64,000 nucleotides of DNA from Casimicrobium huifangae (GTDB lineage: Bacteria; Pseudomonadota; Gammaproteobacteria; Burkholderiales; Casimicrobiaceae), in NCBI RefSeq assembly GCF_009746125.1, contig NZ_CP041352.1:1844436-1908435 (forward strand), in the 5' to 3' direction. Numbering within the stretch: the first letter of the stretch is position 1; each line of letters begins with the position of its first letter. This document shows positions 828 through 63,531 of the stretch, in pieces. The notes under the pieces are model-generated. The model was not told the origin of the DNA and ran no database searches. It saw only the letters and a list, made by a program, of their open reading frames with translations. The position numbers were made by a program, and so were the translations under genes.

Positions 828-948
828 CACTGACTTTTGCTGAAGATGACGTTTCAATGCGGCGCGCAGACAAGAAATGTATCAAGTCGACTATTTGCCT
901 AATCGCGTCTGAGCCCACATTGAACGATGGTTTCAAAGAAAAGCTATA
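828..948 (+). repeat. intergenic palindromic repeat, copy A
   Basis: This is one of seven related elements of about 121-129 bp. Read on the minus strand it starts TATAGCTTTTCTTTGAAACC, continues with an ATGTGGGCTCA block (ATATGGGCTCA in the best copies), and has AGTCGACTT near the centre. It fills most of the spacer between the methyltransferase gene (3' side) and the XRE-cupin gene (5' side). Boundaries are good to a few bases and come from eye alignment of the copies. The plus sign means that the GAGCCCA half is at the right end. Confidence 0.75.
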
Positions 949-963
949 GGCGGACCCGAGGGC

Positions 964-1620
964 TCAGCGCTGAAACAGGAATGAAATCAATCGCGGCAGC
1001 GCGGCAGATTCGTCTGGATGGCACCACTCGTCGAGCCGCCGCAGGTGCAAGCCGGCGCGGCCCGCAGCGGCGGTGAAATCGGACAGGTGATGGGTGAAGG
1101 CGTCCACCTTTACCGTGTCCCCGGAGGCGCCGGCAAAGCGCGCCTGGCTGCCAGCGTACTGCCTGTATGGGTGCAGCTCACACACCCACAGATGACCGCC
1201 GGGCGCCAGCACGCGGGCGGCTTCCTCAAAATAAGGTGACAGATCCTTGAGGTGCTCCAGTACCAGGCTGCACGACACCAGATCAATGCTGCTGTTGTCG
1301 GCCGGCCAGCGTTGCAGCAAGTCGCACTGCGCAAAGCGGACCTGCGGTGGCAGACCGCGTTGGGCCGCCTTGGCCAGCATGCCAGACGAGAAATCGACGG
1401 CGAGCACGGACTGGCTGATGCTGGCGAGAAAGGCCGTGTTCTTGCCGGTACCGCAGCCCGTCTCCAGCGTTGCGCGCGGGCGCAGCTCGCCGAGCACACG
1501 CGGCAGCACCTGTGCATCGAGATCGCGGGTCGGATTGCGGTCGTGGTCGTACTGCGCCGACCACGCGTCGTAAGCGGCGGCGATGGCGGGTGGCTTGGCA
1601 GGAGGCGTCGTCATCCGCAC
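964..1620 (-). CDS. class I SAM-dependent methyltransferase
   Basis: The 218-residue protein has a methyltransferase-11/25 type Rossmann fold. Motif I is LETGCGTGKNTAFL (about residues 53-66), the acidic residue ending strand 2 is in VLAVDFSSGML, and motif IV lies around IDLVSCSLVLEHLKDL. The family transfers a methyl group from S-adenosylmethionine to small molecules; the substrate cannot be read from the sequence. It is soluble and has no signal peptide. It stands alone, between the big secreted protein gene and repeat copy A. Confidence 0.85.
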   Translation of the reverse strand: MRMTTPPAKPPAIAAAYDAWSAQYDHDRNPTRDLDAQVLPRVLGELRPRATLETGCGTGKNTAFLASISQSVLAVDFSSGMLAKAAQRGLPPQVRFAQCDLLQRWPADNSSIDLVSCSLVLEHLKDLSPYFEEAARVLAPGGHLWVCELHPYRQYAGSQARFAGASGDTVKVDAFTHHLSDFTAAAGRAGLHLRRLDEWCHPDESAALPRLISFLFQR

Positions 1621-1683
1621 AGGATAGCCAAACCGGTGCCCGGTCGCCCAGCGCGGAGGCGCTTTGCTGGCGCTTGGAAGCGG

Positions 1684-4600
1684 TCAGGGCATGCGCGCGG
1701 CGATGGCGGCTTCGATGTCGGCTGCCAGCGTGCGTGTGGCGCCGCTACCCAATGCGCCATTGACCAGCGCATCACCGCGCAGGCCAGTGAGATAGCGCAG
1801 TAACAGCAGGCCATCGGTCAGCGCATCGACGCGACCATTGCCGTCGATGTCCAGCAGCGGCAGCAGGTCGGTCACGTAGCTGGCGATCTGGGCCGGATCG
1901 GTGCGCCCGGCGTTCGTCCCGGTCGCGTTGACGGTCAGCGCCAGGCCGCCGAAACCGAACAGACGACGCAGCATCAGCACGCCGTCAAACGCCGCTTCGT
2001 AGCTGTGGTTCAGGTCCACATCGATCGGGAAAGGCGCCAGTGCCGATGGCGCAAAGGTCGCCGACACGGTGGTATCGCTGTTGACCGTGATCTGGCAGGG
2101 GCCAGTGCCCGCGCAGTGGCCCAGCCAGCCGGTGAAGATCGCATCGGCGTCGGGCGCGGCGGTGAGCGTCACCGCACTGCCATTGGCATACAGGTGCGAG
2201 CAGGTTGATCCGCAGTTGATCTCGCTGTTAGCGCTGCTGACGTTTCCGCCGGCGCTGCCAGGCCGGGTGACGGTCAGCGTTGATTGCTGGTCGATTGCGA
2301 CGACTGTGTGCGCCACCGGCGTTGCCTGACTCGCGAAAAATACACCGTCTCCGCTGTAGCGGGCATTGAGTGTGATGGTGCCGGCGCTGGCCGGTGTGAC
2401 TGCGCAGGATGTCGCCGGAAGCACAATGCTGCAGGTTGCACTGCCGTCGCTCACGATGATGCTGCCGCTCGGTGTACCCGTCGCGGGCGTGGTCGCCGTG
2501 ACCGTTGCCTGCACAGTGATTGGCTGGCCGACCACGCTCGGGTTCGGCGTGTGCGCGTTGATGCTGGTCGATGTCGAGTTCTGTGGCAGACAGGCTGATC
2601 CGGTGCCCGCATAAAGCAGCGCCACTTCCGCCGTCGATAGCGCCCGGTTGAACACCGCCGCTTCGTCGATCTCGCCCTTCCAGCGGGTAGCGCCGGGGCC
2701 ATCTGGCGGCCTCAATCCGAGCGTCAGACCATCGGCCGACAGCGTGGTGTTGAGGGCGCCGACGACGGCCTCGGCGTCGATCTGGCCATTGAGATAGAGC
2801 CGCAGCTGGTTGCCGTCGTAAGTCACCGCGACGTGATACCAGGTGTCGGGCTGTAGTGTGGTGGCACCGACGACATCGTTGCTGTTGCCGTAAAAATAAA
2901 GCCGATGCGGCGCGTTACCCGAGGTGATCAGACCGAACATCTGCGAGCCGGCGGCGGTGCCGTACTGCATCATCGCCCATTCCGTGGTGCTGTAGAAGTT
3001 GGCGGGCGTCTTGACCCACAGCGCCATCGAGCGCGGCGCACTGCCTGTCGGCAGAGCATTCGGCTGCGCAACCCGCACGTACCCGCTGCTGCCATCAAGA
3101 TTGAATGCCTGACCCGATTTTCCAGGCGTGTAGGTGACACCGCCGACCGTCACGGCTGCGTTGTTACCCATTGTGTCGCGGCCACCGCCGTCACCCGTCC
3201 ACCAGCTAATGGTGCCGGCGAGCAGATTGGGGCAGGCCGAAGCGAGGCGCACGTAGCGGTTGCGCACCTCGGACGCCGCGAGCGCGGTGTCGAAAATGCT
3301 GACCTGGTCAATGGCGCCGTTTACATAACTTTCGCCGATGCTGTAGTGCCAGTAGCCCATTTGCAGGTCGCGCGACTGATAGGCGGTGGACGCGCCAGGC
3401 ACCACCTGCTGCGCACGTTGCTCGCCGTCGACGAACAGCGTGTAGGTGTCGCCGTTGCGTGTGGCGACCAGGTGATGCCACGCCGTCGAGGCGTACTTGC
3501 CACCGGAGGTCATCACCAACTGCCAGGCGCCGCTGCCACCGATGTCGAACAGGAACTCGCCCGCCGCCGAGTGACCCGGGCCGCCGTAACCGAGGAACAG
3601 ACCATCCTGATTGCCGGCGCTGCGCACCAGCATCGGGCAATGCCAGTTGTCGCTGCAGGTGTCGGGCCGGATCCAGCCTTCAATCGTCCAGTTGTTGCCC
3701 ATGTCGAACGCCGGCACCGTCACCTTGCCGGTGCTGCCGTTCAAGCGAAACGCCTGTCCGGCCACACCCGCCGTGTAAGTCACGCCGCCGCTGCTTGTAC
3801 CGTGATGGGCGCCGGAGCTGTCGAGCGCATTGCCTTCGGCTTCATACATCGCCAGCGGAACGAGTCCGGCATCCGCCGTCACGTGGTACGGATAGTTGAG
3901 GCCGGTCGCGGCACCGACGATGACGCGCTTCGGCGCGACGTCGCCGCTGTCGTTGCGGTTGAACACGCTGATCCGGTTGCCGTTCGCGTCCGCGATAAGC
4001 AGCTCGTCACCAATCGTCCACACCGCGACCGGAAAGGCAAACCCGGTCTGCGCGCCGCTGATCGAGCGCTTCGGCGCGACGTTGCCGTTATCGCCGAGGT
4101 TGAACACGCGCACTGCGCCACTGGTCATGGCGAACAGTTCGCCGTTGGACACATGCACGCCAACCAGACCGGCGAGCAGCGTGTTGCTGCCGGTGATGGT
4201 GCGCGACGGCGTTGCCGGGTTGCTGGCGGTTTTTGGGTAGATGTAAATGGTGTTGCCCGCAGTGACGTTGTAGTCCTGCGGCAGGATCAACTCGTCGCCG
4301 TAGACCGCCAGCCCGCGGGCCGGCAAATCCAGCACCCGCTTCGGGACGACTGCATTGCCGTTGTCGCTGCTGTTGTAGACCTGCACGCTGCCACCGTTGG
4401 CATTGGCCACGTAAAGCTCTCCGTTGTCGACCCAGCAGTGCGCAGGATTGCTCAGGTTGCCGCTGATGCTGCGCTTCGGCGGTGCATCGCCGGCGGCGTT
4501 GATGTCGTGCACGGTGATGGTGTTTGCATGATGATTGGCAACGAACAGTTCATCACCGGATACGAAGGCGCAGGCGGGGGTAGCGATGCCAGTATTGGCG

Positions 4601-7210: not shown

Positions 7211-7290
7211 ACCGGCTGGGAAACGAGTTCACCAGTCAGTACGCAAGGGCAGCAAAAGCGGTTTTTAGCCGTGGGTACCAAGACGTTTTT

Positions 7291-10768: not shown

Positions 10769-10771
10769 GCG

Positions 10772-11622: not shown

Positions 11623-11629
11623 GGGCAGA

Positions 11630-16332: not shown

Positions 16333-17040
16333 TTAAAAATCGGTAGCGGCTTTACCAACGACCCGCGTCTTCGGCGCATCGGCGACAGACGTGGCAATAG
16401 AAGCGGTAGTCGCCGACGGCGCGGCAGCCTCCGCAGACGGCACCACGAGGCTCAAGTCCGGAAGGCCACCGACGATGCGGCGGGCGCCGTTGAAGGCTTT
16501 TTGCCAGTATTTCTGATCGAGGCTGACCACTTCAACCGCACCGCCACGGCTCGGCGCGTGAATGAAGCGGTTGTCGCCAAGATACAGGCCCACGTGCGAA
16601 AACTGGAAGCGACGGGTGTTGAAGAACACCAGGTCGCCGGGCTGCAATTTGTCGATGGCCACCGTCTCGCCGACGCGTGCCTGCTCGCGTGCAGTACGCG
16701 GCAGTGCGATACCGGTCGCCTGCTGGAATACGTAGCGAATCAGACCGCTGCAGTCGAGCCCCTGCTCGGGCGTGTTACCGCCAAATTTGTAGTTGACCCC
16801 AATCAGCGACAGCGCATAGCTGGTGATGTCGGAGGCGGCGTCGCGCGCCTTGCCGCCGAAGTCGCGCAGCGTCTTTTCTGCACGCACCAGCGCGGTGTCA
16901 ACTTTGGCAGACGCATCATCGGCATGGCTGGCAACGACTGGCAGCGCCAGCAATGCGATCAGTGCTGTGCGAACGACAATTTTCCGCGCGTCAGGCTTGG
17001 GATTGACCGCTGCGCGGTGACATTGAGGCGTAACAGGCAT
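16333..17040 (-). CDS. NlpC/P60 (C40) cell-wall hydrolase
   Basis: The 235-residue exported peptidase probably cuts between D-Glu and diaminopimelate in peptidoglycan stem peptides. The signal region is residues 12-41. The catalytic Cys is in GLDCSGLIRYVFQQATG (about 99-115), the His in FSHVGLYLGDNRFIHAP, and the third polar residue is the second His in the latter. The domain starts with GVNYKFGGNTPEQ. A low-complexity Ala/Thr tail follows the catalytic domain. It stands alone, convergent with the ankyrin gene and divergent from dapA. Confidence 0.88.
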   Translation of the reverse strand: MPVTPQCHRAAVNPKPDARKIVVRTALIALLALPVVASHADDASAKVDTALVRAEKTLRDFGGKARDAASDITSYALSLIGVNYKFGGNTPEQGLDCSGLIRYVFQQATGIALPRTAREQARVGETVAIDKLQPGDLVFFNTRRFQFSHVGLYLGDNRFIHAPSRGGAVEVVSLDQKYWQKAFNGARRIVGGLPDLSLVVPSAEAAAPSATTASIATSVADAPKTRVVGKAATDF

Positions 17041-19277: not shown

Positions 19278-20042
19278 GTGCGCTTCGCGAGTCTCGGAAG
19301 CGGCAGCGAAGGTAACGCCCTGCTGGTGCAGTCAGGGGCCACCACGGTCATGATCGACTGTGGTTTTGCCGTCCGCCAGGTGGTCGAGCGTTGTGCCCGG
19401 CTTGGCTTCGACGCGGCGTCCATCAACGCCATCGTCGTAACTCACGAACACAGCGATCACGTCGGCGGCGTGCCGCGACTGGCGCGTCGCTTTGATATCC
19501 CCGTCTGGCTGACCTTTGGCACGCTGGCGGCGACCGAGTCGCGCTGGGAGGGCTGCACGCTGCGCGGATTCGATTCGCACGACCCGTTTGCTGTGGGTGA
19601 CCTCGAAGTGCAGCCGTTTCCAGTACCGCACGATGCCCGTGAACCGGCACAGATGGTGCTGTCCGATGGCGACTTGCGGCTGGGGGTGCTCACCGATGTC
19701 GGCGAGACCACCGGCTTCATCGAGTCCTCGCTGCGCGGCTGTGACGCGCTATTTCTTGAGGCGAATCACTGCGAAGACATGCTGGCCAACTCGCGCTATC
19801 CGGCGAGCTTGAAGGCGCGTATTGCCGGACGCTACGGGCACTTGTCCAACCGGGTCGCCGCGCTGCTGCTGGCAAGGCTGGCGCACGGCGGTCTGCATCG
19901 CGTCGTTGCGGCCCACCTCAGCCGCGAGAACAATCGGCCAGACCTTGCCCGGGAAGCGTTTGCCAATGCCCTGGGCGGTGACGCGCAGGACATCCATGTG
20001 GCGTCGCAGGATGATGGGCTCGATTGGGTGGTGGTTGCTTGA
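19278..20042 (+). CDS. MBL-fold metallohydrolase (YycJ/WalJ-like)
   Basis: The 254-residue protein is a metallo-beta-lactamase fold hydrolase with the SLGSGSEGNALLV N-terminus of the YycJ group. Metal ligands are in VVTHEHSDHVGG (about 54-65), VPHDARE and LEANHCEDML. Members are nucleases or phosphodiesterases; the true substrate is unknown. It starts with GTG at 19278, 15 bases after bamC, and is probably part of the same transcript. Confidence 0.85.
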   Translation: MRFASLGSGSEGNALLVQSGATTVMIDCGFAVRQVVERCARLGFDAASINAIVVTHEHSDHVGGVPRLARRFDIPVWLTFGTLAATESRWEGCTLRGFDSHDPFAVGDLEVQPFPVPHDAREPAQMVLSDGDLRLGVLTDVGETTGFIESSLRGCDALFLEANHCEDMLANSRYPASLKARIAGRYGHLSNRVAALLLARLAHGGLHRVVAAHLSRENNRPDLAREAFANALGGDAQDIHVASQDDGLDWVVVA

Positions 20043-20072: not shown

Positions 20073-20194
20073 TAACAGCTTTTCGTTGTGATGGCGTCAG
20101 TACTGGGCTTATCGGCATAAATGAGATGAAGTCGGGTTTTCATCTTTTAGAGCGTCAGGCCGCAGGCACGTGTCGTTTGAAGAAAAAGCTGATG
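20073..20194 (-). repeat. intergenic palindromic repeat, copy B
   Basis: This is a more diverged member of the seven-copy family. It runs AACAGCTTTTCG, then TACTGGGCTTATCGGCATAAATG (written here in parts: TACTGGGCTTA and TCGGCATAAATG), then GAAGTCGG, and ends GAAGAAAAAGCTGATG, the inverted match of the left end. It fills the spacer between the MBL hydrolase and the broken HAD gene. The minus sign means that the GAGCCCA-type half is at the left. Confidence 0.65.
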
Positions 20195-26324: not shown

Positions 26325-27449
26325 ATGCAACGTACTCCCGCCCTGACGCTGCTCGGCAGCGCAATCGCCGTGCTGCTTGCGGCCTGTACCACCAGCACAC
26401 CGGCGCCGGTGGTTGACCGCACGGCGCGTCCGGTCGCCAGTGCGCCGACACCGCCGCGGCCGGCCCCGGTCTCCGCACCGGCGCCCGTGCAACCGGGCAT
26501 GACCGTCGGGTCGCAGTTCTATGTGGTGCAGAAGGGTGACACGCTGTACGGCGTCGCGCGCGCCAATAATCTCGATCCCAATACGCTCGCGACATGGAAC
26601 AGTTTGCCGCCAGGCAGCGGTCTGCGCGACGGCCAGGTGCTGCGACTGACGCCGCCGCTCGGCTCGGCACCGGCGGTCACCGCGCCGGGCACCACGGTGA
26701 CGGCGGCGCCGACGGCGGGCGCGATTCAGGGCCAGCCGCTGCCTGCTGCCGCCAGCACGGCGCCGGCCCCGGCGGCAGGTGCCGCACCGCCACTGACGGT
26801 GACGCCAGTGGAAGCTCCGCTGAAGCGTGATCCCAAAGCGCAGCGCGCGCCGTACAGCGATGCTGCATTGGCCGCCATGCAGCGCGGCGAAGGGACGACG
26901 CCATCCGCCGTCGTCCCGAACGGCACGCCGTCCCCCGCCACGCCGGCCAGTGCGCCTGCGCCGGTTGCCACCGGCGGTCCGACCCCGGCGCCGGGCGTTC
27001 CCACCGCAGCGGCGCCCGCCAATGCGCCTGCGGTCGCAGCGCCGACGGTCGATCTTGACGTGAAGACGGGCGGTGGCGCCGAGCGCGACGGCATTACCTG
27101 GAGTTGGCCCGTCACTGGCCGCGTCACCAGCAAGTTCAACGACAAGGCGCCGATGAAAGGCATCGATATTGTGGCGAGTGCCAGCGCTCCGGTGCTGGCA
27201 GCGGCCACCGGGAAGGTTATCTACGTGGGCAAGGAGCCGCGCGGCTACGGCCAGATGATCGTGGTCAGCCACGCCAAGGAGACGGTCAGCGTCTATTTCC
27301 ACGCTGACAAGGTGCAGGTGAAAGAGCAGCAGCGCGTGCTGCTCGGTCAGAAGCTCGCTGAAGTGGCCGGTGGCGGCGACAACAAGATGCACTTCGAGGT
27401 GCGTCGCCAGGGGCGGCCGATTGATCCGGTAACCCTGATGCCCAAGTAA
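26325..27449 (+). CDS. nlpD: NlpD-like LysM/M23 lipoprotein, amidase activator
   Basis: The 374-residue outer-membrane lipoprotein (lipobox VLLAAC, Cys about 22) has a LysM peptidoglycan-binding domain (about 62-112, YVVQKGDTLYGVARAN), a long Pro/Ala linker, and a C-terminal M23 domain (about 255-374). The domain is degenerate: the first metal His is replaced in APMKGIDIV, and only scattered His remain (YFHADK, MHFEVRR). NlpD and EnvC share this loss and act by switching on AmiC-type amidases during daughter-cell separation. In many proteobacteria rpoS follows; here it does not. Confidence 0.9.
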   Translation: MQRTPALTLLGSAIAVLLAACTTSTPAPVVDRTARPVASAPTPPRPAPVSAPAPVQPGMTVGSQFYVVQKGDTLYGVARANNLDPNTLATWNSLPPGSGLRDGQVLRLTPPLGSAPAVTAPGTTVTAAPTAGAIQGQPLPAAASTAPAPAAGAAPPLTVTPVEAPLKRDPKAQRAPYSDAALAAMQRGEGTTPSAVVPNGTPSPATPASAPAPVATGGPTPAPGVPTAAAPANAPAVAAPTVDLDVKTGGGAERDGITWSWPVTGRVTSKFNDKAPMKGIDIVASASAPVLAAATGKVIYVGKEPRGYGQMIVVSHAKETVSVYFHADKVQVKEQQRVLLGQKLAEVAGGGDNKMHFEVRRQGRPIDPVTLMPK

Positions 27450-27467
27450 GTCTCCAGTCCATCGGAC

Positions 27468-27590
27468 CAACAGCTTTTGACGGAAACGCCCGGTAACCAA
27501 GGGCTCACGCTGATAAATCGCCTAAAGCCGACTTCCTGGGTTTTTGGCGTCCAAGCCCAAAAGAAATGGGCCTTGCAGCCATAAGCTGTA
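27468..27590 (-). repeat. intergenic palindromic repeat, copy C
   Basis: This copy reads CAACAGCTTTTGACGGAAAC, then a GCCC..GGGCTCA block, TGATAAATCG and AAAGCCGACTT, and ends in the inverted CATAAGCTG. It sits between nlpD and a convergent membrane-protein gene, and its right end overlaps the terminator hairpin at 27566-27598. The GAGCCCA-type half is at the left. Confidence 0.7.
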
Positions 27591-27598
27591 AGGCCCAT
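27566..27598 (-). terminator. intrinsic terminator for the minus-strand membrane protein gene
   Basis: ATGGGCCTT and AAGGCCCAT, continued by CAGC and GCTG, make a stem with a short loop. On the minus strand it is followed by TTTCTTTT, as an intrinsic terminator needs. On the plus strand the tail is not T-rich. It overlaps the right arm of repeat copy C, so the repeat may supply the terminator. Confidence 0.65.
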
Positions 27599-27667
27599 CG
27601 AGGAGGAGGGCGCCGCCGTCTTTGCGGTGGCTTGTCCCTTTTTGCTACAGCTGTCGCTGCAGACGAC

Positions 27668-28174
27668 CTAGTAGTAGCGGGTCGCCTGCGGCCACGGCGC
27701 CAGTGCGGCGAGGCCATCGTCACGCACGCTCATGCTGGTGCGCATCGCCGGCACGGCTTCGTCGCGCAGCGCGTCGGCGCGGCCCTGGGCGACGAGGATG
27801 TCGTTCATCACTCGCGGGTCGCGTAGCGCCGTGTTCCACAGCGTGCGGTCGGCTCGCTCGGCGCGTGCCGCGGCGGCGCGAGTTGCCAGCCAGCCTTGAC
27901 TTGCCTTGGTGCCGCGCAGGATGACGCCGGCGAGCAGGCCGAAGGTGAGCAGCGCAACCGCGCTCAGGATCGCCCATTCCAGGGCAAAACCGGTGCTCAC
28001 GGCATCCAGCGCACGCTCGGTGGCAGTGACCACGGCCATGATGGTGACGCCGAGCACGTAAGTCGGCAGCCGTTTGGCCGAGAAGATTTCAGAGAGGACG
28101 CTCCTTGTGGCGCTGGCGCTCTCAATGACGCGCTCGACTCCGCCGTGGGTAGTGGGGTGGGATGGGATAACCAT
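27668..28174 (-). CDS. small inner-membrane protein of unknown function
   Basis: The 168-residue protein has two membrane helices (about 40-58, LPTYVLGVTIMAVVTATE, and 70-92, LEWAILSAVALLTFGLLAGV) and an Arg/Ala-rich C-terminal helix (KASQGWLATRAAAARAERAD). I start at the ATG at 28174, which has a good AAAGGACA ribosome site; the open frame continues upstream but is unsupported. It is divergent from the LysR gene, so it may be that regulator's target. I do not recognise a family. Confidence 0.65.
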   Translation of the reverse strand: MVIPSHPTTHGGVERVIESASATRSVLSEIFSAKRLPTYVLGVTIMAVVTATERALDAVSTGFALEWAILSAVALLTFGLLAGVILRGTKASQGWLATRAAAARAERADRTLWNTALRDPRVMNDILVAQGRADALRDEAVPAMRTSMSVRDDGLAALAPWPQATRYY

Positions 28175-28293
28175 GTGAATGTCCTTTCGAAGAATCGCTT
28201 GTGGCGACATCAGCAATCTAGGGTATCCCCTGATATATTGCAAATTGATGTTTATGATGTTTGTCATTCGATTGGTGAATGGAAGGGGCGAGG

Positions 28294-29292
28294 ATGGCCG
28301 CCAGTGACGTCAATTTCCGCACGCTCGATCTCAATCTTTTGCGCGTGTTTGACGAGGTGATGGCCGCCCGCAATCTCACGCGGGCTGCGGCCTCGCTGGC
28401 GATGACCCAGCCGGCAGTGAGCAATGCGCTGCGCCGTCTGCGCGACGCGCTGGGCGACGAGCTGGTGGTGCGTGCGGGCTACGGCGTCACGCCGACGCCG
28501 CGAGCAATCGCTCTATGGCCTGTGGTGCGCGAGGCACTCGCCAGCCTGCAGGCAAGTGTGGCGCCGGCGGTATTTGACCCGGCGACCTCGCGGCAGAACT
28601 TCGTATTGGCGATGGCCGATGCCACCGCCGCCATCCTGGTGCCACCACTGGTGCGTCACATTGAAGCGACCGCGCCTGGCGTCAGCCTGCGCGTGCTGCC
28701 GCTCACCACGCGCGATCCGCGGGCGCTGCTGGAGGCGGGCGAGGTGGACATGGCGGTGGGCTATTTCCCGGCCGTGGTCGCGGCGATTGGCTTGCAGACC
28801 ATGCAGAGCGGCACGCCCGACAATTTTTCGCATGCCCTGCTCTACAGCGGTGAGTACGTTTGTGTGATGCGGCGCGGGCATCCACTGGTGCGCGATCTCA
28901 ACGCCTCGCCGTTGACGCTGGATGCCTATTGCGAAGCGCATCATCTGCTGGTCAGTTTTTCAGGGCGCCCGTTTGGCTTTATCGACGAGGCGCTGGCAGC
29001 GATTAATCGGACGCGGCGGGTGGTGATCACCGTCAACCAGTTCTTCACGGCCGGTCGTGTCGTGGCTGGCTCCGATCTGCTGACAGTGCTGCCACGGCAC
29101 TTCTTGCCGTCAACCGGCATGCAGGACGAACTGCTGGTGGTGGAGCTGCCGTTCGAGGTGCCGCCGGTGCGGGTGGACATGGTCTGGCACCGGCGTGCAC
29201 AGGCGCTGGCCGCGCAACGCTGGCTGCGTGAGGCGATTAGCGAAGTCGCCCGCTCGTGGTCGCCGATCACCGCTGCAGCTGTCGGTCAGTAG
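28294..29292 (+). CDS. LysR-family transcriptional regulator
   Basis: The 332-residue regulator has an N-terminal winged helix-turn-helix (about 14-70, AARNLTRAAASLAMTQPAVS then NALRRLRDALGDELVVRAG) and a periplasmic-binding-like effector domain (about 95-315). The N-terminal RTLDLNLLRVFDEVMAARN resembles NodD/SyrM-like and aromatic-pathway regulators. I choose the ATG at 28294, preceded by GGAAGGGGCGAGG; an ATG at 28279 lies inside that ribosome site. It is divergent from the membrane protein gene and overlaps the 3' end of the convergent TonB receptor by seven bases. Confidence 0.9.
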   Translation: MAASDVNFRTLDLNLLRVFDEVMAARNLTRAAASLAMTQPAVSNALRRLRDALGDELVVRAGYGVTPTPRAIALWPVVREALASLQASVAPAVFDPATSRQNFVLAMADATAAILVPPLVRHIEATAPGVSLRVLPLTTRDPRALLEAGEVDMAVGYFPAVVAAIGLQTMQSGTPDNFSHALLYSGEYVCVMRRGHPLVRDLNASPLTLDAYCEAHHLLVSFSGRPFGFIDEALAAINRTRRVVITVNQFFTAGRVVAGSDLLTVLPRHFLPSTGMQDELLVVELPFEVPPVRVDMVWHRRAQALAAQRWLREAISEVARSWSPITAAAVGQ

Positions 29293-31566: not shown

Positions 31567-31689
31567 GCAGCATCTTTTCCGGGAAATGACCTTTTTATCG
31601 GGCCTGGAAGCCTGAATTGTCAAAAACCGACTTATGCCGATTCGACCATTGAGCCCATATGCAATGGGGCTTTCACGCCAAAGCCATAC
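31567..31689 (+). repeat. intergenic palindromic repeat, copy D
   Basis: The right half is well preserved: TTGAGCCCATATGCAATGGG, then GCTTTCACGCCAAAGCCATA. The left half (AGCATCTTTTCCGGGAAATG) is the diverged inverted match. The copy lies between the divergent TonB receptor and porin genes. The GAGCCCA half is at the right. Confidence 0.7.
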
Positions 31690-43038: not shown

Positions 43039-43551
43039 ATGAATGTTGCTGTCAGAGCCTTCAACAGGGGGATTGCCGTGAGCCTTTTGTCCGGCCTGCT
43101 GCTGCTCGTTGCCTGTGATCGCGTCGCCACTGGCGAATTGCAGCCGGGCCAATCCACAGTTGCAGACATGAAGCAGAAGATGGGCGAGCCGGCCAGCGTC
43201 TACCGCGAGGGCGACCGCGAAGTCTGGGAGTATCCGCTTGGCCCGGAAGGCGTGCGCACCTACATGATGACGGTAAACGCGCAGGGTACGCTGGAAAGGA
43301 TCGACCAGGTGCTGACCGAGGCCAACTTCAAGCGCATCCAGCCGGGCATGACCATCACCGAAGTGCGCCGCATTCTCGGCCGCAACAGCAAGGAACAGCG
43401 CTTCGGCATGACGCCGAACGAGTTGACCCACAAGTACAAATTCAACAACGGCCGCGAGGATCTCTATTTCGACGTGACCTACGCCGCCGACGGGCGCGTG
43501 AAGGAAACTGGCTACGACCAGTTCAGCCTGCAGAAGGGGTCGGGGCAGTAA
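43039..43551 (+). CDS. BamE/SmpA-like outer membrane lipoprotein with two modules
   Basis: The 170-residue lipoprotein (lipobox LLLLVAC, Cys about 26) contains two SmpA/OmlA-like half domains: LQPGQSTVADMKQKMGEPAS (about 33-52) and IQPGMTITEVRRILGRNSKE (about 96-115). BamE itself has one such unit, so this is a two-module relative rather than the classic BAM subunit. It follows tadA by three bases and is likely in the same transcript. Confidence 0.82.
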   Translation: MNVAVRAFNRGIAVSLLSGLLLLVACDRVATGELQPGQSTVADMKQKMGEPASVYREGDREVWEYPLGPEGVRTYMMTVNAQGTLERIDQVLTEANFKRIQPGMTITEVRRILGRNSKEQRFGMTPNELTHKYKFNNGREDLYFDVTYAADGRVKETGYDQFSLQKGSGQ

Positions 43552-43568: not shown

Positions 43569-43690
43569 TTCAGCTTTTTACTGAAACCATTATCGAATAT
43601 GGGCTTACCACCAAAAATTGCCGAATGTCGATAATCGGGTAAATTGCTCGCTGAGCCCGGTTCGTATGGGACTTTCACCGAAAAGCTGTT
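43569..43690 (+). repeat. intergenic palindromic repeat, copy E
   Basis: This is the best symmetric copy. It starts CAGCTTTTTACTGAAACC and ends GGGACTTTCACCGAAAAGCTG (split: GGGACTTTCACC and GAAAAGCTG), with ATATGGGCTTA and TGAGCCCGG facing each other and AAATTGC / GCAATTT arms inside. It lies between the BamE-like gene and a convergent DUF2269 gene. The GAGCCC half is at the right. Confidence 0.8.
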
Positions 43691-51640: not shown

Positions 51641-51698
51641 GCCAGTATTGTCCTATGAGCGCCGGATTGGCCTGACGACGGCAGTGGCAGCAGGCGCT

Positions 51699-53474
51699 TC
51701 AATGCGCTGCGTGACGCGCCAGGATGACCCGACGCAAGTCCGCTGCCACCACGTGGTACTCAAGACCGTGCAGGTCAAAGCGCGGCAGCTGATCGAAGTC
51801 GGTGATCGCATAGCCGCGTTCCAGCGCTTGCCATTCGTCGGCGAAATCCGCGAAATTGAAACGCACCTTGTGCGGTTCGGCGGCGGCACCGAGGCCCAGT
51901 TCGTCGAGGTAGTCGACCAGTATCGTCGTGCGTTCAAGGTAGGGCTGCAGCGTCTGCTCAAACAGTCCTACCGAGTAAAACGGATCGGCTTTCGAGTAGT
52001 TGGCATCAGCGGCAAGAAAATCCTGCACCAGTTGCTTGCTCGATGTGCTGGGCGACAGTGCCTCGTAACCGCTGGCCGTGATGCTGCCGCCAACGGTGGC
52101 GAGCACGGCGGCCATCAGCATGGCGTCAAAGCGGCGACCGCGGCGATTGAGCTGCCACGCGGCAAATACGGCCAGGGCAAAGAAACTTGCGCCGACGATC
52201 ACGTACAGCGAGAACGCATCGACCATGCCGGGTGTGTAGGCATCGTTGACGAAGCGTTCGCGCGCCAAAGGGATCAGGAACAACACCGCTGGCACGACTG
52301 CGATCAGCAGCAGCAGGCGGCGGAACGAGCGATCGGAACCGGCCAGCATGATCGGCGTCAGCAGTAGCGCGGCGGCCGGTGTAATGGGTAGCAGGTAGGA
52401 CGACAGCTTCGATTTCGATGCGCTGAAGAACAGGAAGATGAACACGCACCAGATGGTCAGAAATAGCGGCACGTTAAGCGTTGCACCCGCGTAGGTCTCG
52501 CGCAGCGTTTGCCAGCCGCTGCGGTGCAGCAGTTTGAGCAAGGCTGGCGTCCACGGCATCAGGCCTACGATCACCAGCGGCACGAAGTAAAACAGCGAAC
52601 CGATACGGTCGTGCTCTTCGTTGGCAAAGCGGCCGAAATGCTCGTAGATGAAGAAGAAATTGGCCCATTCCGGATTGCGTGACTGCACCAGCAGCGGCCA
52701 CGGCAGCGCGATCAGCAGGAATACCAGCGGTCCCCACAGCCATTCCAGTCGCGTCAGCAGACGCCATTGCCGGGTCATCAGCAGGTAGAGCACAAAGATG
52801 GCGCCCGGCAGCACGATGCCGATCAGCCCTTTGGAGAGGAAAGCCAGCGCGGCACCAGCCCATGCCGCCACCATCCAGCCGCGGGCAGCTGTCACCGATT
52901 GCCCCTGCACGCCAAAGCCGCGCAGCATGCCCACCAGCGTGAGCGTCATGAACGCGCTCAAACCCATGTCAAGCGTGTTGATGTGCGCGATCAGGAAGTA
53001 GTAGCACATGGCGCCGAGCACCGCGGTGGTGACCATCGCCACTTCGCGGCCAGCGAGCGCGCGGGCGGCGCACCAGGTGAACAGCAGCCCGAGCAGGCCG
53101 GTGAATGCCGGCCACCAGCGGCCGGTGAAGTTGTTCAGCCCGAAGGTGTCGATCGCCAGCGCCGTGGCCCAGTACTGCAGCGGCGGCTTCTCGAAGTACT
53201 TCAGGCCGTTGAGGGTTGGCGTCACGTAGTCGCCGGACACCGCCATTTCGCGGGCGATCTCGGCGTAGCGGCCTTCATCCGGGCGGACCAGGGTACGGTA
53301 GGCGGAGGGAATCAGCCAGGCGGCGAGGAATAGCGCAGCAAGCAGCGCCAGCAGAGGGGAGGACAGCTTCACGGCGGACGATGCTAGCAGAGGGGGCGCG
53401 GGCTGTGCGGGGGAGGATGCGGTGGTCGCCAGTCGGGCAGATTGCCTGTTTTCGGTAGTTTGATTCACTGACAA
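51699..53474 (-). CDS. arnT: lipid A 4-amino-4-deoxy-L-arabinose transferase
   Basis: This inner-membrane GT-C (PMT/GT83) enzyme transfers Ara4N from undecaprenyl phosphate to lipid A. The 591-residue protein has 11-13 helices and a soluble C-terminal domain (about 460-590). The catalytic acidic loop is in RTLVRPDEGRYAEIAREM (about 62-79), and YVTPTLNGLKYFEKPPLQYW follows. The start is uncertain: TTG at 53474 or GTG at 53468. Repeat copy F begins at the 5' edge of the gene, so its promoter lies in or beyond the repeat. Confidence 0.92.
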   Translation of the reverse strand: MSVNQTTENRQSARLATTASSPAQPAPPLLASSAVKLSSPLLALLAALFLAAWLIPSAYRTLVRPDEGRYAEIAREMAVSGDYVTPTLNGLKYFEKPPLQYWATALAIDTFGLNNFTGRWWPAFTGLLGLLFTWCAARALAGREVAMVTTAVLGAMCYYFLIAHINTLDMGLSAFMTLTLVGMLRGFGVQGQSVTAARGWMVAAWAGAALAFLSKGLIGIVLPGAIFVLYLLMTRQWRLLTRLEWLWGPLVFLLIALPWPLLVQSRNPEWANFFFIYEHFGRFANEEHDRIGSLFYFVPLVIVGLMPWTPALLKLLHRSGWQTLRETYAGATLNVPLFLTIWCVFIFLFFSASKSKLSSYLLPITPAAALLLTPIMLAGSDRSFRRLLLLIAVVPAVLFLIPLARERFVNDAYTPGMVDAFSLYVIVGASFFALAVFAAWQLNRRGRRFDAMLMAAVLATVGGSITASGYEALSPSTSSKQLVQDFLAADANYSKADPFYSVGLFEQTLQPYLERTTILVDYLDELGLGAAAEPHKVRFNFADFADEWQALERGYAITDFDQLPRFDLHGLEYHVVAADLRRVILARHAAH

Positions 53475-53592
53475 CTATTTCTTGAAATGCCCATTGGCAA
53501 AGGGACTGTGACGCATAAATGGCAAAACTCGACTCCGGCACTTTTCTCACCATAAGCCCATATTGAATAAGGCTTTGATGAAAAAGCTGATC
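53470..53592 (+). repeat. intergenic palindromic repeat, copy F
   Basis: The copy runs GACAACTATTTCTTGAAATG, then GCCCATTGGCAAAGGG, and ends AAGCCCATATTGAATAAGGC then TTTGATGAAAAAGCTGATCG. It fills the spacer between the divergent arnT and efflux-operon genes, touching the arnT start on one side and lying just before the TetR operators on the other. The GAGCCCA-type half (here AAGCCCA) is at the right. Confidence 0.7.
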
Positions 53593-53598
53593 GTCCAG

Positions 53599-53658: not shown

Positions 53659-53660
53659 AA

Positions 53661-56997: not shown

Positions 56998-56999
56998 GC

Positions 57000-59900: not shown

Positions 59901-60104
59901 AGTGGCACCGCCGACCCGAGCTTCCGTTCACCGATGGCGGTGGCGGTGATTGGCGGCCTGATCACGTCCACGGTGCTGTCGCTGCTGGTGATCCCCGCTG
60001 TGTTTACGTTCTTCGACGACTTCGAAGGCGCGTTCAAGCGAGGTCTCAGTCGTATCGGCAACCTGTTTCGGCGCCGACCGAAAGCCTCTGCTGCCGGTGA
60101 CTGA
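57000..60104 (+). CDS. RND multidrug efflux permease
   Basis: The 1034-residue inner-membrane proton/drug antiporter (HAE1-like) has 12 membrane helices and two large periplasmic loops. It begins MMNVSSWSIKNPIPSVMIFF. The proton relay Asp pair is in LVIGILVDDAIVEVENIVRH (about residues 400-419), and the second half shows the conserved GVATKNSILLVEYA. The third gene of the pump, it lies three bases after the adaptor stop. The sequence does not reveal its substrates. Confidence 0.93.
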   Translation: MMNVSSWSIKNPIPSVMIFFLLTLAGLFSFSAMKVQNFPDLDLPTVTVSASLPGASPGQLENEVARKIENSIATLQGVKHIYTKVQDGGATITTEFRLEKPVQEAVDDVRSAVSRVRAELPGDLRDPVINKIDLAGSPVLAFTIASKRMDDEALSWFVDNTLTRKLLAVRGVGAVTRVGGVDRQVQVQLDPVRMQALRVSAADVSRQLKQVQVEAAGGRTDLGGAEQSVRLLATVRSAEELAAYEIALNDGRRVRLDQIASVVDTIAEQRSAAMLNGKPVVGFEVSRSKGASEVEVGAGIHKALDQLKLENPDLELSESFDFVTPVAEEYEASIKLLLEGALLAVLVVFLFLREWRATLVSAVALPLSAIPAFIGMYYLGFSINVVTLLALSLVIGILVDDAIVEVENIVRHLRMGKTPYQAAMEAANEIGLAVIATTFTLIAVFLPTAFMSGIAGKFFKQFGWTAALAVFASLVVARMLTPMMAAYMMKPMVAAHREPKWLEIYMRWAAWCLRHRWVTLVAAGAFFVGSIMLIPLLPTGFIPPDDNSQTQVYLELAPGSTLADTKAAAEKARQLVMAVPHVKSVYTTIGGGSAGTDPFAPQGLAEVRKATLTILLTERLQRPERKQPIEANIRKALEQVPGVRSKVGLGGSGEKYILVLTGDDPNAIATAARAVEKDLRTIPNLGSITSTASLVRPEIAVKPNIATAAELGVTSAAIAETLRIGTVGDYDQFLPKLNLSQRQVPIVVKLTTDARQDLDALGRLTVPGNKGPVMLASVADLNVASGPAVIDRYDRSRNINFEIELSGAPLGDVVEAVNKLPSINSLPPGVKVVEVGDAEVMGELFASFGLAMLTGVLCIYIVLVLLFKDFLHPVTILAALPLSLGGAFVGLLIAQKSFSMPSLIGLIMLMGVATKNSILLVEYAIVARRDHGMSRFDALLDACHKRARPIIMTTIAMGAGMLPIAIGSGTADPSFRSPMAVAVIGGLITSTVLSLLVIPAVFTFFDDFEGAFKRGLSRIGNLFRRRPKASAAGD

Positions 60105-60127
60105 TCGACCGGAGGGACAGCTCGAAG

Positions 60128-60149
60128 CCGCCGGCAATCAGGCCGGCGG
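60128..60149. terminator. possible hairpin between convergent genes
   Basis: CCGCCGGC and GCCGGCGG form a perfect 8-base stem with a 6-base loop across the stop codon of the tandem-TetR gene, 24 bases after the permease stop. No T-run follows on either strand, so it is at best a weak or factor-assisted terminator. Confidence 0.35.
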
Positions 60150-61376
60150 GCAGAGCAGGCCGAGGAACATCGGCCGGGCGTAGAGGTCAACGGCGTTGTC
60201 ACGGGTGGCGCCGGGCACCCAGCGGCGCAGCTCGGCGGCAGCGTTGATCAGGCCAATGGCGATTTGGGCGGTGATTGAAGGATCGACGGGGCGGATCGAG
60301 CGATCCATCATGCCATCAACCAGCACGCAGACCATGCGCTCGGTCATCTGGATCATGGTTCGGCGTACCCGCTCACGATGCGCTTCATCAGGCAGCGCAC
60401 TGGTCGCCGATGAGCGCAGCAACGGCCCGTGCTCGGAGAGCTGGTAGCGCACCAGCACCCGTGCGGCGGCGCAGGCACGATCCCAGCCACTGCCGGTGGC
60501 CTCCTCGGCCAATACCAGCGCGCGGCGGACGACGCCGAAGGTACGGTCAAAGCAGGCGCTGATCAGATCCTGCTTGTTGTCATTGTGGTGATAGAACGAG
60601 CCCTTGGTCACGTTCAGCCGCGCCGAAATGCGATCCACCGAAGCACCGCGATAGCCCTGCTCGTTGACGAGGTCGGTGGCTGCGCGCAGAAAGGCGTCTG
60701 CCGTGTCGTTGCTGCCGGTGTCGAGCATCCATGACGCTTCTCCGGCAGTCTCCTGCCAGGCGACGTCAGCGGCCGGAATGCCGTTGAGCAGGATGTCAAC
60801 CACCCGGCTGGCGATGCGTGGATATTCGTCGGGCTCATAGCGCCACATCCAGGCGCGAACCCAGTTGATGACCGAGATGACGATGTGCGTACGAGCATTG
60901 AGTTCATCGCGAGTCAGGCCCGCGGTTTCGTTGCCCTTGAGCAGCGCACGGATGCGCCGGAACAAATCGGTGTAGGCGCCGAACACCGTCTCCAGATGGG
61001 GCTCCGGCAGTGCGCGAAGATCGTTGAACACCACCAGCGCTGATTTCTCGCCCGTCTCCACCTGCGCGAGTAGCGTCACATACTCAAGGAAGAAGCGCTG
61101 GATGCGCGCCCCAACCGTAGCCTCCTGCGCGGCAGTGGACACGATGGCATCGATCACATCAATCGAGCGCAGAAAGCAGGCAGTGGCCAGATCTTCTTTC
61201 TTGCGGTAGTAGTAGGTCACGCTGTTGGTGACCAGACCGACGCTCGCGGCAATGCCGGACAGTGTTGCCCCCTTCACGCCCAGTTCATTGAACAGACTGG
61301 CGGCTGCACCGAGGATCGCCTCACGCTTCTCCTGAAAGCGGGCTGTCTGCGAAGGGCTGGTGGGAGGCGTGGCCAT
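60138..61376 (-). CDS. tandem TetR-family regulator (two complete TetR units)
   Basis: The 412-residue protein holds two full TetR units. Unit 1 (about 10-205): REAILGAAASLFNELGVKGA, TLSGIAASVGLVTNSVTYYY and a ligand domain. Unit 2 (about 225-410): FLRAATDLVNEQGYRGASVD, RISARLNVTKGSFYHHNDNK and a second ligand domain. The two units are only moderately alike, so the fusion is old. Such a protein could bind two half-sites as a single chain. I start at the ATG at 61376. It faces the SDR-lactonase genes, likely targets, with 324 bases between. Confidence 0.88.
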   Translation of the reverse strand: MATPPTSPSQTARFQEKREAILGAAASLFNELGVKGATLSGIAASVGLVTNSVTYYYRKKEDLATACFLRSIDVIDAIVSTAAQEATVGARIQRFFLEYVTLLAQVETGEKSALVVFNDLRALPEPHLETVFGAYTDLFRRIRALLKGNETAGLTRDELNARTHIVISVINWVRAWMWRYEPDEYPRIASRVVDILLNGIPAADVAWQETAGEASWMLDTGSNDTADAFLRAATDLVNEQGYRGASVDRISARLNVTKGSFYHHNDNKQDLISACFDRTFGVVRRALVLAEEATGSGWDRACAAARVLVRYQLSEHGPLLRSSATSALPDEAHRERVRRTMIQMTERMVCVLVDGMMDRSIRPVDPSITAQIAIGLINAAAELRRWVPGATRDNAVDLYARPMFLGLLCPPA

Positions 61377-61700
61377 GGCGGGAAGAGTCAAGGTGGAGCG
61401 TCGCCACGAGGGCGCAGCTTTGGGCAAAAGCATTATGCCGTTGCTGCGTCGCAATCGCCCGCGCGCTGGTCGGCTGGGGCATCCGGCCAGGTCATGCAAA
61501 TGTCATTGACGCCGCACATCGGCAGGCAAAAATCAGGCTCGAAAGTCGGACGCAAGACTCTAGGCCAAACAGGCGCCGCTGGATACACTGAGTTGCCTGG
61601 TTTGGAAAAATCGGTTTGTCCGGCGAAGTGCATCGTCACGCGCGTGCCAGCGGCGCTGCGGTGCCGCGGCACATCGCGCAAAAGCAACAAGGAGCACACG
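61377..61700. other. 324-base divergent spacer, no gene seen
   Basis: The spacer separates the tandem-TetR gene from the SDR gene and should hold promoters for both. A long open frame runs through it into the SDR gene but has no recognisable content and is probably chance. A TTGACG hexamer lies at 61506-61511 on the plus strand without a convincing -10. I see no clear dyad. The SDR ribosome site is AAGGAG near 61689-61694. Confidence 0.4.
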
Positions 61701-62471
61701 ATGTCACTGTTTTCTTTGCACGGCAAGGTTGCTGTCATCACCGGTTCATCCAAAGGGATCGGCCGCGCCATCGCCGAACGCATGGCAGAGCAGGGCGCAA
61801 AGGTGGTGATTTCATCGCGCAAGGCGGACGCCTGCGCGGAGGTTGCAGCGGCGATCAATGCACGCTTCGGCGACGGCACTGCCATCTCGCTGCCGGCCAA
61901 TATTTCGTCGAAGCAGGAGCTGCATGCATTGGTCGATGGTGCCAACGCCCGCTTCGGGAAAATCGACATCCTGGTATGCAATGCCGCGAGCAATCCGTAC
62001 TACGGGCCGATGGCTGGCATCGAGGACGAGCAGTTCCGCAAGATCCTCGACAACAACATCATTTCCAATCACTGGCTGATCGGCATGGTGGCGCCGCAGA
62101 TGGTCGAGCGCAGGGACGGCGCCGTCATCATCGTGTCGTCAATCGGCGGCCTGCGCGGCTCGCCAGTGATCGGCGCCTACAACGTGTCGAAGGCGGCGGA
62201 CTTTCAGCTTGCCCGCAACTATGCCGTGGAGCTTGGGCCACACAACGTGCGGGTCAACTGCATCGCGCCAGGGTTGATCAAAACCGACTTTGCGCGGGCA
62301 CTGTGGGAGGATGCCGAGCTGCTCAAGCGACGGACGGCAACCACGCCACTGCGCCGCATCGGCGAACCCGACGAGATTGCGGGGACGGCGGTGTACCTCG
62401 CCTCGCAGGCGGGCTCGTTCGTGACCGGGCAAGCGATTGTCGTTGATGGTGGCGTGACGATTGGTTCGTAA
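61701..62471 (+). CDS. SDR-family oxidoreductase
   Basis: The 256-residue classical SDR has the cofactor motif TGSSKGIGRAIA (about 14-25), LVCNAASNPYYGPM, the catalytic Ser in VSSIGGLRGSPVI, the YxxxK in AYNVSKAADFQL, and the C-terminal ITGQ-like GSFVTGQAIVVDGG. It likely reduces or oxidises a keto/hydroxy substrate with NAD(P). The start is fixed by AAGGAG six or so bases before ATG 61701. The SMP-30 gene follows 44 bases later; the two probably form a catabolic pair. Confidence 0.9.
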   Translation: MSLFSLHGKVAVITGSSKGIGRAIAERMAEQGAKVVISSRKADACAEVAAAINARFGDGTAISLPANISSKQELHALVDGANARFGKIDILVCNAASNPYYGPMAGIEDEQFRKILDNNIISNHWLIGMVAPQMVERRDGAVIIVSSIGGLRGSPVIGAYNVSKAADFQLARNYAVELGPHNVRVNCIAPGLIKTDFARALWEDAELLKRRTATTPLRRIGEPDEIAGTAVYLASQAGSFVTGQAIVVDGGVTIGS

Positions 62472-62515
62472 CTGCGGCGCGTGCGCCAATTGACACGGAC
62501 ACGGAGGAGACACCC

Positions 62516-63394
62516 ATGACTACTCACGTCACGCCGATCATCACGGGGCTCGCCTTTGCCGAAGCACCACGCTGGCGTGCTGACCCGACGGCGCCAGGTG
62601 GCGGTGAGCTCTGGTTCTCGGATTTCTTTACCCGTTGCGTGATGCGCATCGATAGCGAGGGCCGCGCCCACAAAGTGGTAGAGGTGCCCAACCAGCCGTC
62701 CGGATTGGGCTGGCTGCCGGATGGTCGCCTGCTGGTGGTGTCGATGCTGGATCGCAAGCTGATGCGGCTGGACGCGACCGGATTGGCAGTGGCGGCGGAT
62801 CTGTCCGGCCTCGCCGCGTTTCCGTGCAACGACATGGTGGTGGATGCCAGCGGTCGTGCCTATATCGGCAATTTCGGCTTCGACATCTTTGTGCGTCCAG
62901 TGGAGCCCAGACCAACCGTGCTGGCAATGGTTGCGCCCGACGGCAAGGTGTCCGTCGCTGCGGACGATGTGCTGTTCCCCAATGGCGCCGTGATCACGCC
63001 GGATGGGTGCACCATGATTCTGGCCGAGACCTTTGGTCGCCGTTTGACGGCGTTCGACATCGCGAGTGACGGTACGCTGGCCAACCGTCGGTTGTGGGCT
63101 GACCTCGACAACATCGCACCCGATGGCATCTGCCTCGATGCCGAAGGCGCGATGTGGGTGGCCTCGCCGCGCAGCAACGAGTTCGTGCGCGTGCTGCAGG
63201 GCGGGCGCATCGCGCAACGAATTGCCAGTTCGCAGCAGGGCATTGCCTGTGCATTGGGCGGTGCCGACGGCTGCACGCTATTCATGGTGTCCGGTCGCGT
63301 GCGGCCGCATGCCGAGAGTCTCGCTGAGCGCACGGGCCGGATTGACGCCGTGCGTGTGGACGTTCCTGCGGCGGGGCCGCCACGTTGCCTGTGA
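62516..63394 (+). CDS. SMP-30/gluconolactonase-family protein
   Basis: The 292-residue six-bladed propeller of the SMP-30/LRE family is a calcium-dependent lactonase. Family motifs include EAPRWRADP (metal Glu), GELWFSDFFTRCVMRID, LPDGRLLVVSMLDRKLMRLD, FPCNDMVVDASGRAYIGNFG (Asn/Asp ligands) and NIAPDGICLDAEGAMWVA. It may open a lactone made by the SDR next to it, but the substrate is unknown. A GGAGGAGA ribosome site precedes the ATG. Confidence 0.9.
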   Translation: MTTHVTPIITGLAFAEAPRWRADPTAPGGGELWFSDFFTRCVMRIDSEGRAHKVVEVPNQPSGLGWLPDGRLLVVSMLDRKLMRLDATGLAVAADLSGLAAFPCNDMVVDASGRAYIGNFGFDIFVRPVEPRPTVLAMVAPDGKVSVAADDVLFPNGAVITPDGCTMILAETFGRRLTAFDIASDGTLANRRLWADLDNIAPDGICLDAEGAMWVASPRSNEFVRVLQGGRIAQRIASSQQGIACALGGADGCTLFMVSGRVRPHAESLAERTGRIDAVRVDVPAAGPPRCL

Positions 63395-63402
63395 CGGGTT
63401 TC

Positions 63403-63531
63403 CGATCAACATCTTTTTGACAGAAGCCATGTCCTAAAAGGGCGTCGGGTGCAATTCGGCAGTTAGTCGACTTTTCGATTAAATTGCCAGTGAGCCCATA
63501 TCAGATGGGCGTTTCATGAAAAAGTTGATCG
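63403..63531 (+). repeat. intergenic palindromic repeat, copy G
   Basis: This is the longest copy (about 129 bases) and has near-perfect ends: CGATCAACATCTTTTTGACA on the left and GAAAAAGTTGATCG on the right. Inside are CCATATCAGATGGG (a short hairpin), GCAATT..AATTGC arms and the central AGTCGACT. It lies between the lactonase gene and prpE; a different 18-base palindrome follows 13 bases later. The GAGCCCA half is at the right. Confidence 0.8.

Follow-up and report, generated by a model that had tools for sequence, protein, structure and literature searches.

A 122-bp two-fold-symmetric intergenic site in Casimicrobium huifangae with a probable role in chromosome architecture

Background

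A stretch of 64,000 nucleotides from Casimicrobium huifangae (NCBI RefSeq assembly GCF_009746125.1, contig NZ_CP041352.1, positions 1,844,436 to 1,908,435 of the forward strand; hereafter, the window) contains seven similar, palindromic repeats, each lying between genes. The question that these repeats raise is what kind of element they represent. An original prediction, made from the letters of the window alone, proposed three possibilities: a mobile element, a signal for RNA processing or stability, or a protein-binding site. The repeats were shown to belong to a large family with a fixed length, a common two-fold axis and a non-random distribution, and are interpreted below as copies of a genuine, selected chromosomal DNA site, the role of which is probably architectural. 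The observation behind the original prediction was confirmed, while its interpretation was partly supported.

Results

Family size

A profile built from the seven window copies and 12 further copies (R1) was applied to the window at E<=10. It returned 14 rows, corresponding to seven places that were each matched on both strands, and no others; the weakest row had E = 5.8e-11, the seven window copies having been part of the training set. All seven predicted repeats were present at these places. A second profile, trained on 28 copies from the central 304 kb, identified 86 places at E<1e-3 in 1.104 Mb that included the window (C1:1404436-2508435). Of these, 79 were outside the window and 58 were outside the 304-kb training stretch; the reversed control had none at this cut-off. 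The condition under which the original prediction would have failed, namely that no more copies exist than chance would give, was thus decided in favour of the family. Relaxing the cut-off added little, giving 87 places at E<=1 and 92 at E<=10, while the reversed sequence produced no match at E<=0.1, one at E<=1 and four at E<=10.

A search of the whole genome yielded 995 first-look candidates on both strands, and scoring 150 of these identified at least 104 distinct places across the whole chromosome; since 150 of 995 candidates were scored, the genome total was extrapolated from the 86 places in 1.104 Mb, to approximately 350 copies in the 4.466-Mb chromosome, or one per 13 kb. The expectation of hundreds of copies per genome was correct by this extrapolation. 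Among the 86 places, the match spanned at least 120 bp in 69, 110–119 bp in eight, 100–109 bp in four and less than 90 bp in five; most copies were full length, and so there was almost no tail of decaying copies. One re-scan of this genome contained one overlapping pair. There was no match to a single copy by blastn in a plasmid collection, nor to one exact degenerate pattern in viral contigs. Judging by titles and the beginnings of abstracts, none of the papers listed in searches for such repeats in the open subset of PubMed Central (PMC) described the family, subscription papers being outside that scope.

Anatomy and symmetry

The anatomy of the element was taken from 80 of the 86 copies, aligned at their centres, with the six copies having a match span of 106 bp or less excluded. 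Information ended at 61 bp either side of the centre, with background beyond, which gives an element of 122 bp. The repeats, predicted to be of 121–129 bp, are real, but the 129-bp copy required trimming, from 63403-63531 to 63408-63529. Each half profile contained 37.6 bits, and the whole element about 75 bits. The central motif was GTC|GAC, with the axis at TC|GA and A/T runs at positions 4–6; moving outwards, there were blocks of AWWT (12–16), GGGC (26–29), a weaker CC-TT (36–41), AAA (43–46) and TTTT (51–55). Several single bases were more than 90% fixed in the profile of this genome, and a weak second dyad was present inside each half, centred at 34. Measured over the whole element, an A/T component of 9.7–10.1 bp was the top or second peak in all five genomes examined, as would fit DNA that is bound along one face.

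Each repeat had been described as nearly its own inverted complement. This was true of the consensus, but not of single copies: the two halves within a copy were 46.6% identical, compared with 44.6% for halves taken from different copies (permutation p = 0.01), and this slight excess was absent in one relative (G006, p = 0.73) and not clear in another (G065, p = 0.20). The small hairpin predicted in each half corresponded to the weak inner dyad, but there was no conserved stem. RNAalifold produced no consensus pairs from 19 copies, there was almost no covariation, and hairpin positions were paired in 45.4% of cases, against 44.9% expected from composition. Complementarity across the inner dyad was 3.04 of 7 pairs in C. 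huifangae (2.84 expected), 3.61 in G065 (3.15 expected) and 4.28 in G006 (4.02 expected); these were small excesses (p = 0.003–0.02), of a kind that a binding site for a dimer could give. When window copies were folded singly, four of seven were more stable than shuffled sequences (z = -2.4 to -3.6), one was borderline (z = -1.95) and two were not, which is most simply seen as a trivial effect of a palindromic consensus. The window had no match in Rfam at gathering thresholds. Since the two halves were nearly independent and pairing was close to that expected from composition, each half was read as linear sequence, and the palindrome mainly as a property of the consensus. Such a linear but symmetric pattern may be read as the imprint of a protein complex that has two-fold symmetry and binds duplex DNA.

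Genomic placement and spacing

None of the 86 copies had its midpoint within a gene, according to gene calls from a quick, unvalidated gene finder made for this analysis, and three copies overlapped a called gene end by 17–38 bp. The copies were found in spacers of every type, as predicted: 46 were tandem, 20 convergent and 20 divergent. In total, 86 of 911 spacers held a copy. The copies were also over-dispersed. Only three gaps were shorter than 4 kb, where 21.1 ± 3.4 were expected from 20,000 drawn sets of spacers with the same orientations and lengths, and the coefficient of variation for gap length was 0.63 where 0.95 was expected; no matched draw was as extreme. Over-dispersion relative to uniform placement was also observed in G065, G010 and G002 (p<=0.008). 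Density was approximately one copy per 13 kb in C. huifangae and one per 4–10 kb in other genomes with many copies. The job of the element is most likely chromosomal, and not gene-specific, because of this density, because copies stand a few kb apart and because spacers of every orientation are occupied.

G002 had 25 copies in 111 kb (C21 1-110910), which is two to three times the density in C. huifangae, G065 and G010, and these were regularly spaced, 19 of the 24 gaps being 2.5–6 kb long; they were identified with a weak profile that had been iterated.

Distribution and consensus dialects

The model from C. huifangae matched 16 of 17 genomes in the genus (its own included) and none of 43 others, comprising 19 from the same family and 24 from the same order; these zeros denote no match at strict filters with a model of the C. 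huifangae dialect. The named relatives were uncultured Burkholderiales or Betaproteobacteria, represented by metagenome-assembled genomes. Two genomes were re-scanned with three different seeds, the other 42 outside the genus being covered by the strict search: G016, a member of the genus, had no copy by model search or in 80 kb re-scanned, and G017, from the sister genus, had no copy in 160 kb. At the sensitivity of the strict search, the element appears to be specific to the genus.

The same 122-bp frame was found in five genomes, three of which had a shifted consensus. Four dialect groups were distinguished: C. huifangae with G065, G010 with G009, G006, and G002. The G006 dialect had AGCT at about 57, GCCCAATTTAATTGGGC-like dyads at 34 and a TTT.TC centre, and was represented in 200 kb by 23 copies at a cut-off of 22, where the best reversed score was 1.4, although this count depended on the cut-off and could be 23 or 33, the latter including at least one overlapping pair. 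G010 (17 copies in 160 kb) and G002 (25 in 111 kb) had dialect versions of their own.

Two genomes of the genus are only 2.5–2.6 Mb in size; one of these, G008, had few copies (two in 80 kb), and the other, G016, had none, which suggests loss with genome reduction.

Conservation of position and turnover of sequence

Aligned stretches of C. huifangae and G065, a sister species, were 66–93% identical, many being near 80–86%. Of 28 copies in the 304 kb, 11 could be anchored in G065 and 17 had no anchor. All eight copies anchored on both sides had a copy at the same place, two of these pairs including a partial copy (43 bp in C. huifangae; 71 bp in G065), as did two of three anchored on one side, the exception being at local position 156022. 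In the reverse direction, 11 of 15 anchored G065 copies had a counterpart in C. huifangae.

Across the genus, the spacers at the 3' ends of three genes were compared, excluding C. huifangae itself and taking best protein matches as orthologues. A copy was found at 24 of 46 loci, across dialects: 10 of 15 for the metallo-hydrolase gene (19278-20042), nine of 15 for nlpD and five of 16 for the BamE-domain gene (43078-43551). Control regions at the same loci gave no matches in 19.3 kb of near 5' flank, none inside the genes and three in 43 kb of farther 3' flank. G007 lacked an nlpD orthologue and G016 an orthologue of the hydrolase gene; G003 (nlpD) and G014 (hydrolase), where the available 3' flank fell short of 450 bp, were scored as misses, as was half a copy in G015, while two G002 matches passed only narrowly, by 8 and 14 bits. 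The contrast with the controls should be read knowing that related genomes are not independent and that spacers are favoured in general. Where gene neighbours were conserved with G006 and G002, three of four C. huifangae copies had a counterpart. Adjacent gene pairs that carried a copy in neither genome numbered 39 with G010, seven with G008 and 14 with G016.

Sequence identity was then compared for nine orthologous pairs, taken from 11 alignments; of the two excluded, one involved the 43-bp partial copy of C. huifangae and the other was the second of two G065 matches to a single C. huifangae copy. Conserved positions were 77.4% identical and free positions 33.3% identical, compared with 75.9% and 31.9% respectively among non-orthologous pairs. 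The free positions have been exchanged while the motif has been retained. Together with the dialects, the comparisons of position indicate that sites have mostly persisted in place while their consensus probably drifted in concert, with some gain and loss.

Type II topoisomerases and related proteins

In a search for the GyrA family, a ParC-type match was absent from all 17 genus genomes and from the sister-genus genome G017 (ParC's own model was not run), while a second, ParC-like match was returned for nine of 12 other genomes of the order. The lineage therefore seems to lack topoisomerase IV, and gyrase is apparently its sole type II topoisomerase. One full-length GyrA was present in 13 of 17 genus genomes, and fragments in the other four (G003, G005, G013 and G014). 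The GyrA match covered the usual 3–798 of 800 model positions, both inside and outside the genus. Expansion of HU/IHF was not seen, there being 2–4 matches in each of the 17 genus genomes and 3–7 in 19 others.

A copy was located downstream of gyrA, approximately 95 bp from the end of the gene, both in C. huifangae (copy at G000:C1:2478235-2478355; gyrA at G000:C1:2478453-2480951, minus strand) and in G065 (copy at G065:C15:13776-13898; gyrA at G011:C15:11185-13683, plus strand). G000 denotes the C. huifangae genome, while G011 and G065 are the same genome, with identical coordinates.

The copies of the window

The seven copies are listed in Table 1. The first had no anchored comparison in G065. 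The third was situated in an apparent nlpD-rpoS neighbourhood (region 26325-29292), where a gene on the opposite strand (27668-28174) separates nlpD from the next plus-strand gene; rpoS is a putative assignment, from synteny. This copy matched two G065 copies that flank a segment of about 16 kb, part of which is found elsewhere in the C. huifangae chromosome (about C1:1983891-1989618); the copy was therefore placed at a rearrangement breakpoint.

Table 1. Copies of the 122-bp element in the window, with counterparts in the related genome G065 (PWM, position weight matrix)
Copy	Position	Strand	Details
1	828..949	.	R1 match 830-949, 58.3 bits; symmetric-PWM half scores 31/39 bits
2	20073..20194	.	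3' of metallo-hydrolase gene (19278-20042); counterpart G065 C12:16932-17054
3	27469..27590	.	3' of nlpD (26325-27449); G065 counterparts C16:599-718 and 16649-16768
4	31568..31689	.	Partial G065 counterpart, 71 bp, 24 bits
5	43569..43690	.	Between convergent genes, 3' of BamE-domain gene (43078-43551); counterpart G065 C16:34055-34175
6	53470..53591	.	Counterpart G065 C16:46026-46131
7	63408..63529	.	Counterpart G065 C16:52855-52977, one-side anchor

Discussion

A chromosomal site for a symmetric complex

Mobility, a function in RNA or termination, and operators each failed to account for these data, and what remained was a function at the level of the chromosome, indifferent to orientation and exerted by a symmetric complex. 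Operators, for example, do not explain the copies in convergent spacers. Of the possibilities raised by the original prediction, a protein-binding site was supported as a class of explanation, the protein itself being a prediction from sequence. With confidence and doubt about equally balanced, the element is interpreted as a selected, cis-acting DNA site for a symmetric protein complex, the likeliest role of which would be chromosomal, in the control of supercoiling or looping. Under the mechanism proposed, a symmetric complex would assemble on the site, wrapping or spanning about 120 bp with its two-fold axis at TC|GA, and selection would keep the site at a few hundred intergenic places. Each site could then act as a docking or insulating station, through which the supercoiling or looping of each chromosome segment would be controlled. 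The complex might be DNA gyrase itself or a dedicated architectural protein.

Several observations weigh against this interpretation. No binding protein was identified. The spacing effect was weak in G006 (p = 0.06–0.08). Position conservation was partial, in that 22 of 46 spacers lacked a copy, including 11 of 16 for the bamE-like spacer, and among gene pairs in common with G006 or G002, eight copies were present only in the other genome. The strongest A/T period in the wings (17–61 bp) was 7.35–7.45 bp in all five genomes, which is not helical. An information content of about 75 bits far exceeds the need for marking a few hundred places. Finally, both G017 (in 160 kb) and G016 were without copies and without a ParC-type match, and so the site is dispensable and is not tied to the loss of ParC.

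More tentatively, and with rather more doubt than confidence, the element may represent a new class of chromosome-organising site. Such a class would comprise about 350 or more two-fold-symmetric, high-information sites of 122 bp per genome, placed roughly evenly by selection, the consensus of which drifts in concert across largely stationary sites as a symmetric, DNA-wrapping reader (possibly gyrase, doing all of the type II topoisomerase work) changes its specificity. In Escherichia coli, the barriers between supercoil domains are described in a review as randomly placed and without established identities (PMC6907758). In the present lineage, a long symmetric site is encountered about every 4–13 kb, its copies keep clear of one another and they mostly stay in position as the sequence outside the motif turns over; should the site delimit topological segments or load a topoisomerase, sequence would offer a means of testing what determines the size of a domain. 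The dialects would provide a natural experiment in the co-evolution of one reader with hundreds of sites, and G016, as a member of the genus in which no site was detected, offers a way to find that reader by gene loss.

Alternative explanations

The narrower proposal that the element is strictly a gyrase site, with the C-terminal domains of GyrA wrapping both 60-bp arms and the central TCGA serving as a four-base staggered cleavage site, is considered unlikely. In size and symmetry the element is similar to the E. coli gyrase motif, which is reported to be symmetric, 130 bp long and degenerate, with a centre and two wings (PMC6379681), and the genus may have no type II topoisomerase other than gyrase. 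Moreover, bacterial interspersed mosaic elements (BIMEs) provide a precedent, as BIME-2 is cut by gyrase (PMC6379681) and BIMEs can impede supercoil diffusion in E. coli (PMC6907758). However, the wings of the E. coli motif have a G+C periodicity of 10.75 bp, and such a period did not dominate the wings of the present element, for which reason it was not filed as a gyrase site. In the 17–61 bp window there was a secondary peak at 9.95–10.45 bp; in a narrower window (20–58 bp) the peak was at 7.3–7.35 bp in four genomes and, in favour of the proposal, at 10.8 bp in G006 alone, where power was 0.14 at 10.8 bp and 0.13 at 7.3 bp. The near-fixation of several bases also differs from the degeneracy reported for the gyrase motif (PMC6379681), GyrA matches had the same extent inside and outside the genus, and G016 and G017 lacked copies despite lacking a ParC-type match.

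A second alternative is that the element is a watermark maintained by drive. In this case, a receptor for biased uptake or recombination would favour fragments bearing the site, so that sites accumulate, spread evenly and follow the dialect of the receptor. Known uptake sequences are about 10–30 bp long and far denser than the present element, and 122 bp with about 75 bits would be hard to reach by drive. ComEC-type matches were found in all 17 genus genomes (G016 included) and in 17 of 19 others, and do not discriminate, because they are present with or without the site. Although the element resembles uptake sequences, for which dialects are described in Neisseriaceae (PMC3630211), in its regular spacing, its location between genes, its dialects by lineage and its retention of the motif through turnover, this explanation is considered improbable.

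The suggestion that the repeats are mobile, similar to enterobacterial repetitive intergenic consensus (ERIC) sequences or miniature inverted-repeat transposable elements (MITEs), moved in trans and evenly spaced through target immunity, is highly improbable. It is consistent with hundreds of dispersed, palindromic, intergenic copies, with the window copy that corresponds to two G065 copies around 16 kb, with four of 15 anchored G065 copies having no counterpart in C. huifangae (three of the four being weak or partial) and with some gain and loss in more distant genomes. It was rejected because positions were mostly the same across species and dialects, there were no target duplications and decayed copies were nearly absent. 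Orthologous copies also shared hardly more free positions than unrelated copies, and over-dispersion likewise counted against the mobile element of the original prediction. Target duplications were sought in 80 copies, as repeats of 2, 3, 4, 5, 7, 8 and 9 bp at nine offsets, and were not shown; at the copy ends, five of 80 shared a 2-mer and none shared a 3-, 4- or 5-mer, while the only cell to be flagged contained two matches where 0.28 were expected. There were four Y1_Tnp matches in the C. huifangae genome, three of them above the cut-off. The match within the fully scanned stretch was at least 4 kb from the nearest copies, no link was seen for the other three among the copies listed, and G008 had copies but no Y1_Tnp match. 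Elements of the RAYT/REPIN kind were rejected, as neither a link to a Y1 transposase nor a conserved hairpin was seen.

A transcribed RNA element or bidirectional terminator is scarcely credible, being disfavoured by the 20 of 86 copies in divergent spacers, the lack of a consensus fold or of an Rfam match in the window and pairing close to that expected from composition, despite the stability of some single copies, the small excess at the inner dyad, the closeness of convergent copies to both stop codons (18 of 20 used) and the position of tandem copies nearer to the upstream stop (median 46 bp versus 88 bp; n = 43 of 46; Wilcoxon p = 0.009, sign test p = 0.13).

Comparison with known systems

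DNA uptake sequences (DUS, USS) are similar to the 122-bp element in having dialects, intergenic enrichment and turnover with retention of the motif, but are of 10–30 bp and denser, where the present sites occur once per 4–13 kb. HIP1 of cyanobacteria is another genome-wide, iterated palindrome that is common in its clade (PMC4390886). Unlike the present element, HIP1 is an octamer linked to methyltransferases.

To our knowledge, the sequences of ERIC or intergenic repeat units (IRU) and of the 122-bp element are unrelated. The likeness to ERIC/IRU (and to the 127-bp RU-1) concerns length, intergenic location and organisation as a repeat family, but those are characterised as small mobile sequences (PMC2759123), whereas the present element is mostly stable in position and its motif is under long-term constraint. 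The E. coli gyrase motif and the strong gyrase site of phage Mu share a length of about 120–130 bp and two-fold symmetry with a centre and wings (PMC6379681). They differ in that the 10.75-bp wing period is not dominant here and base conservation is stronger.

Repetitive extragenic palindromic (REP) sequences and BIMEs are also present as hundreds of palindromic, intergenic copies, and a role for BIMEs in limiting supercoil diffusion has been proposed (PMC6907758). BIMEs are assembled from several short REP hairpins and are frequently associated with RAYT transposases (PMC2817692), while the element described here consists of single 122-bp sites that have no conserved hairpin, are over-dispersed and have no visible link to a Y1 transposase. 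In terms of function, BIMEs are the closest counterpart of this element.

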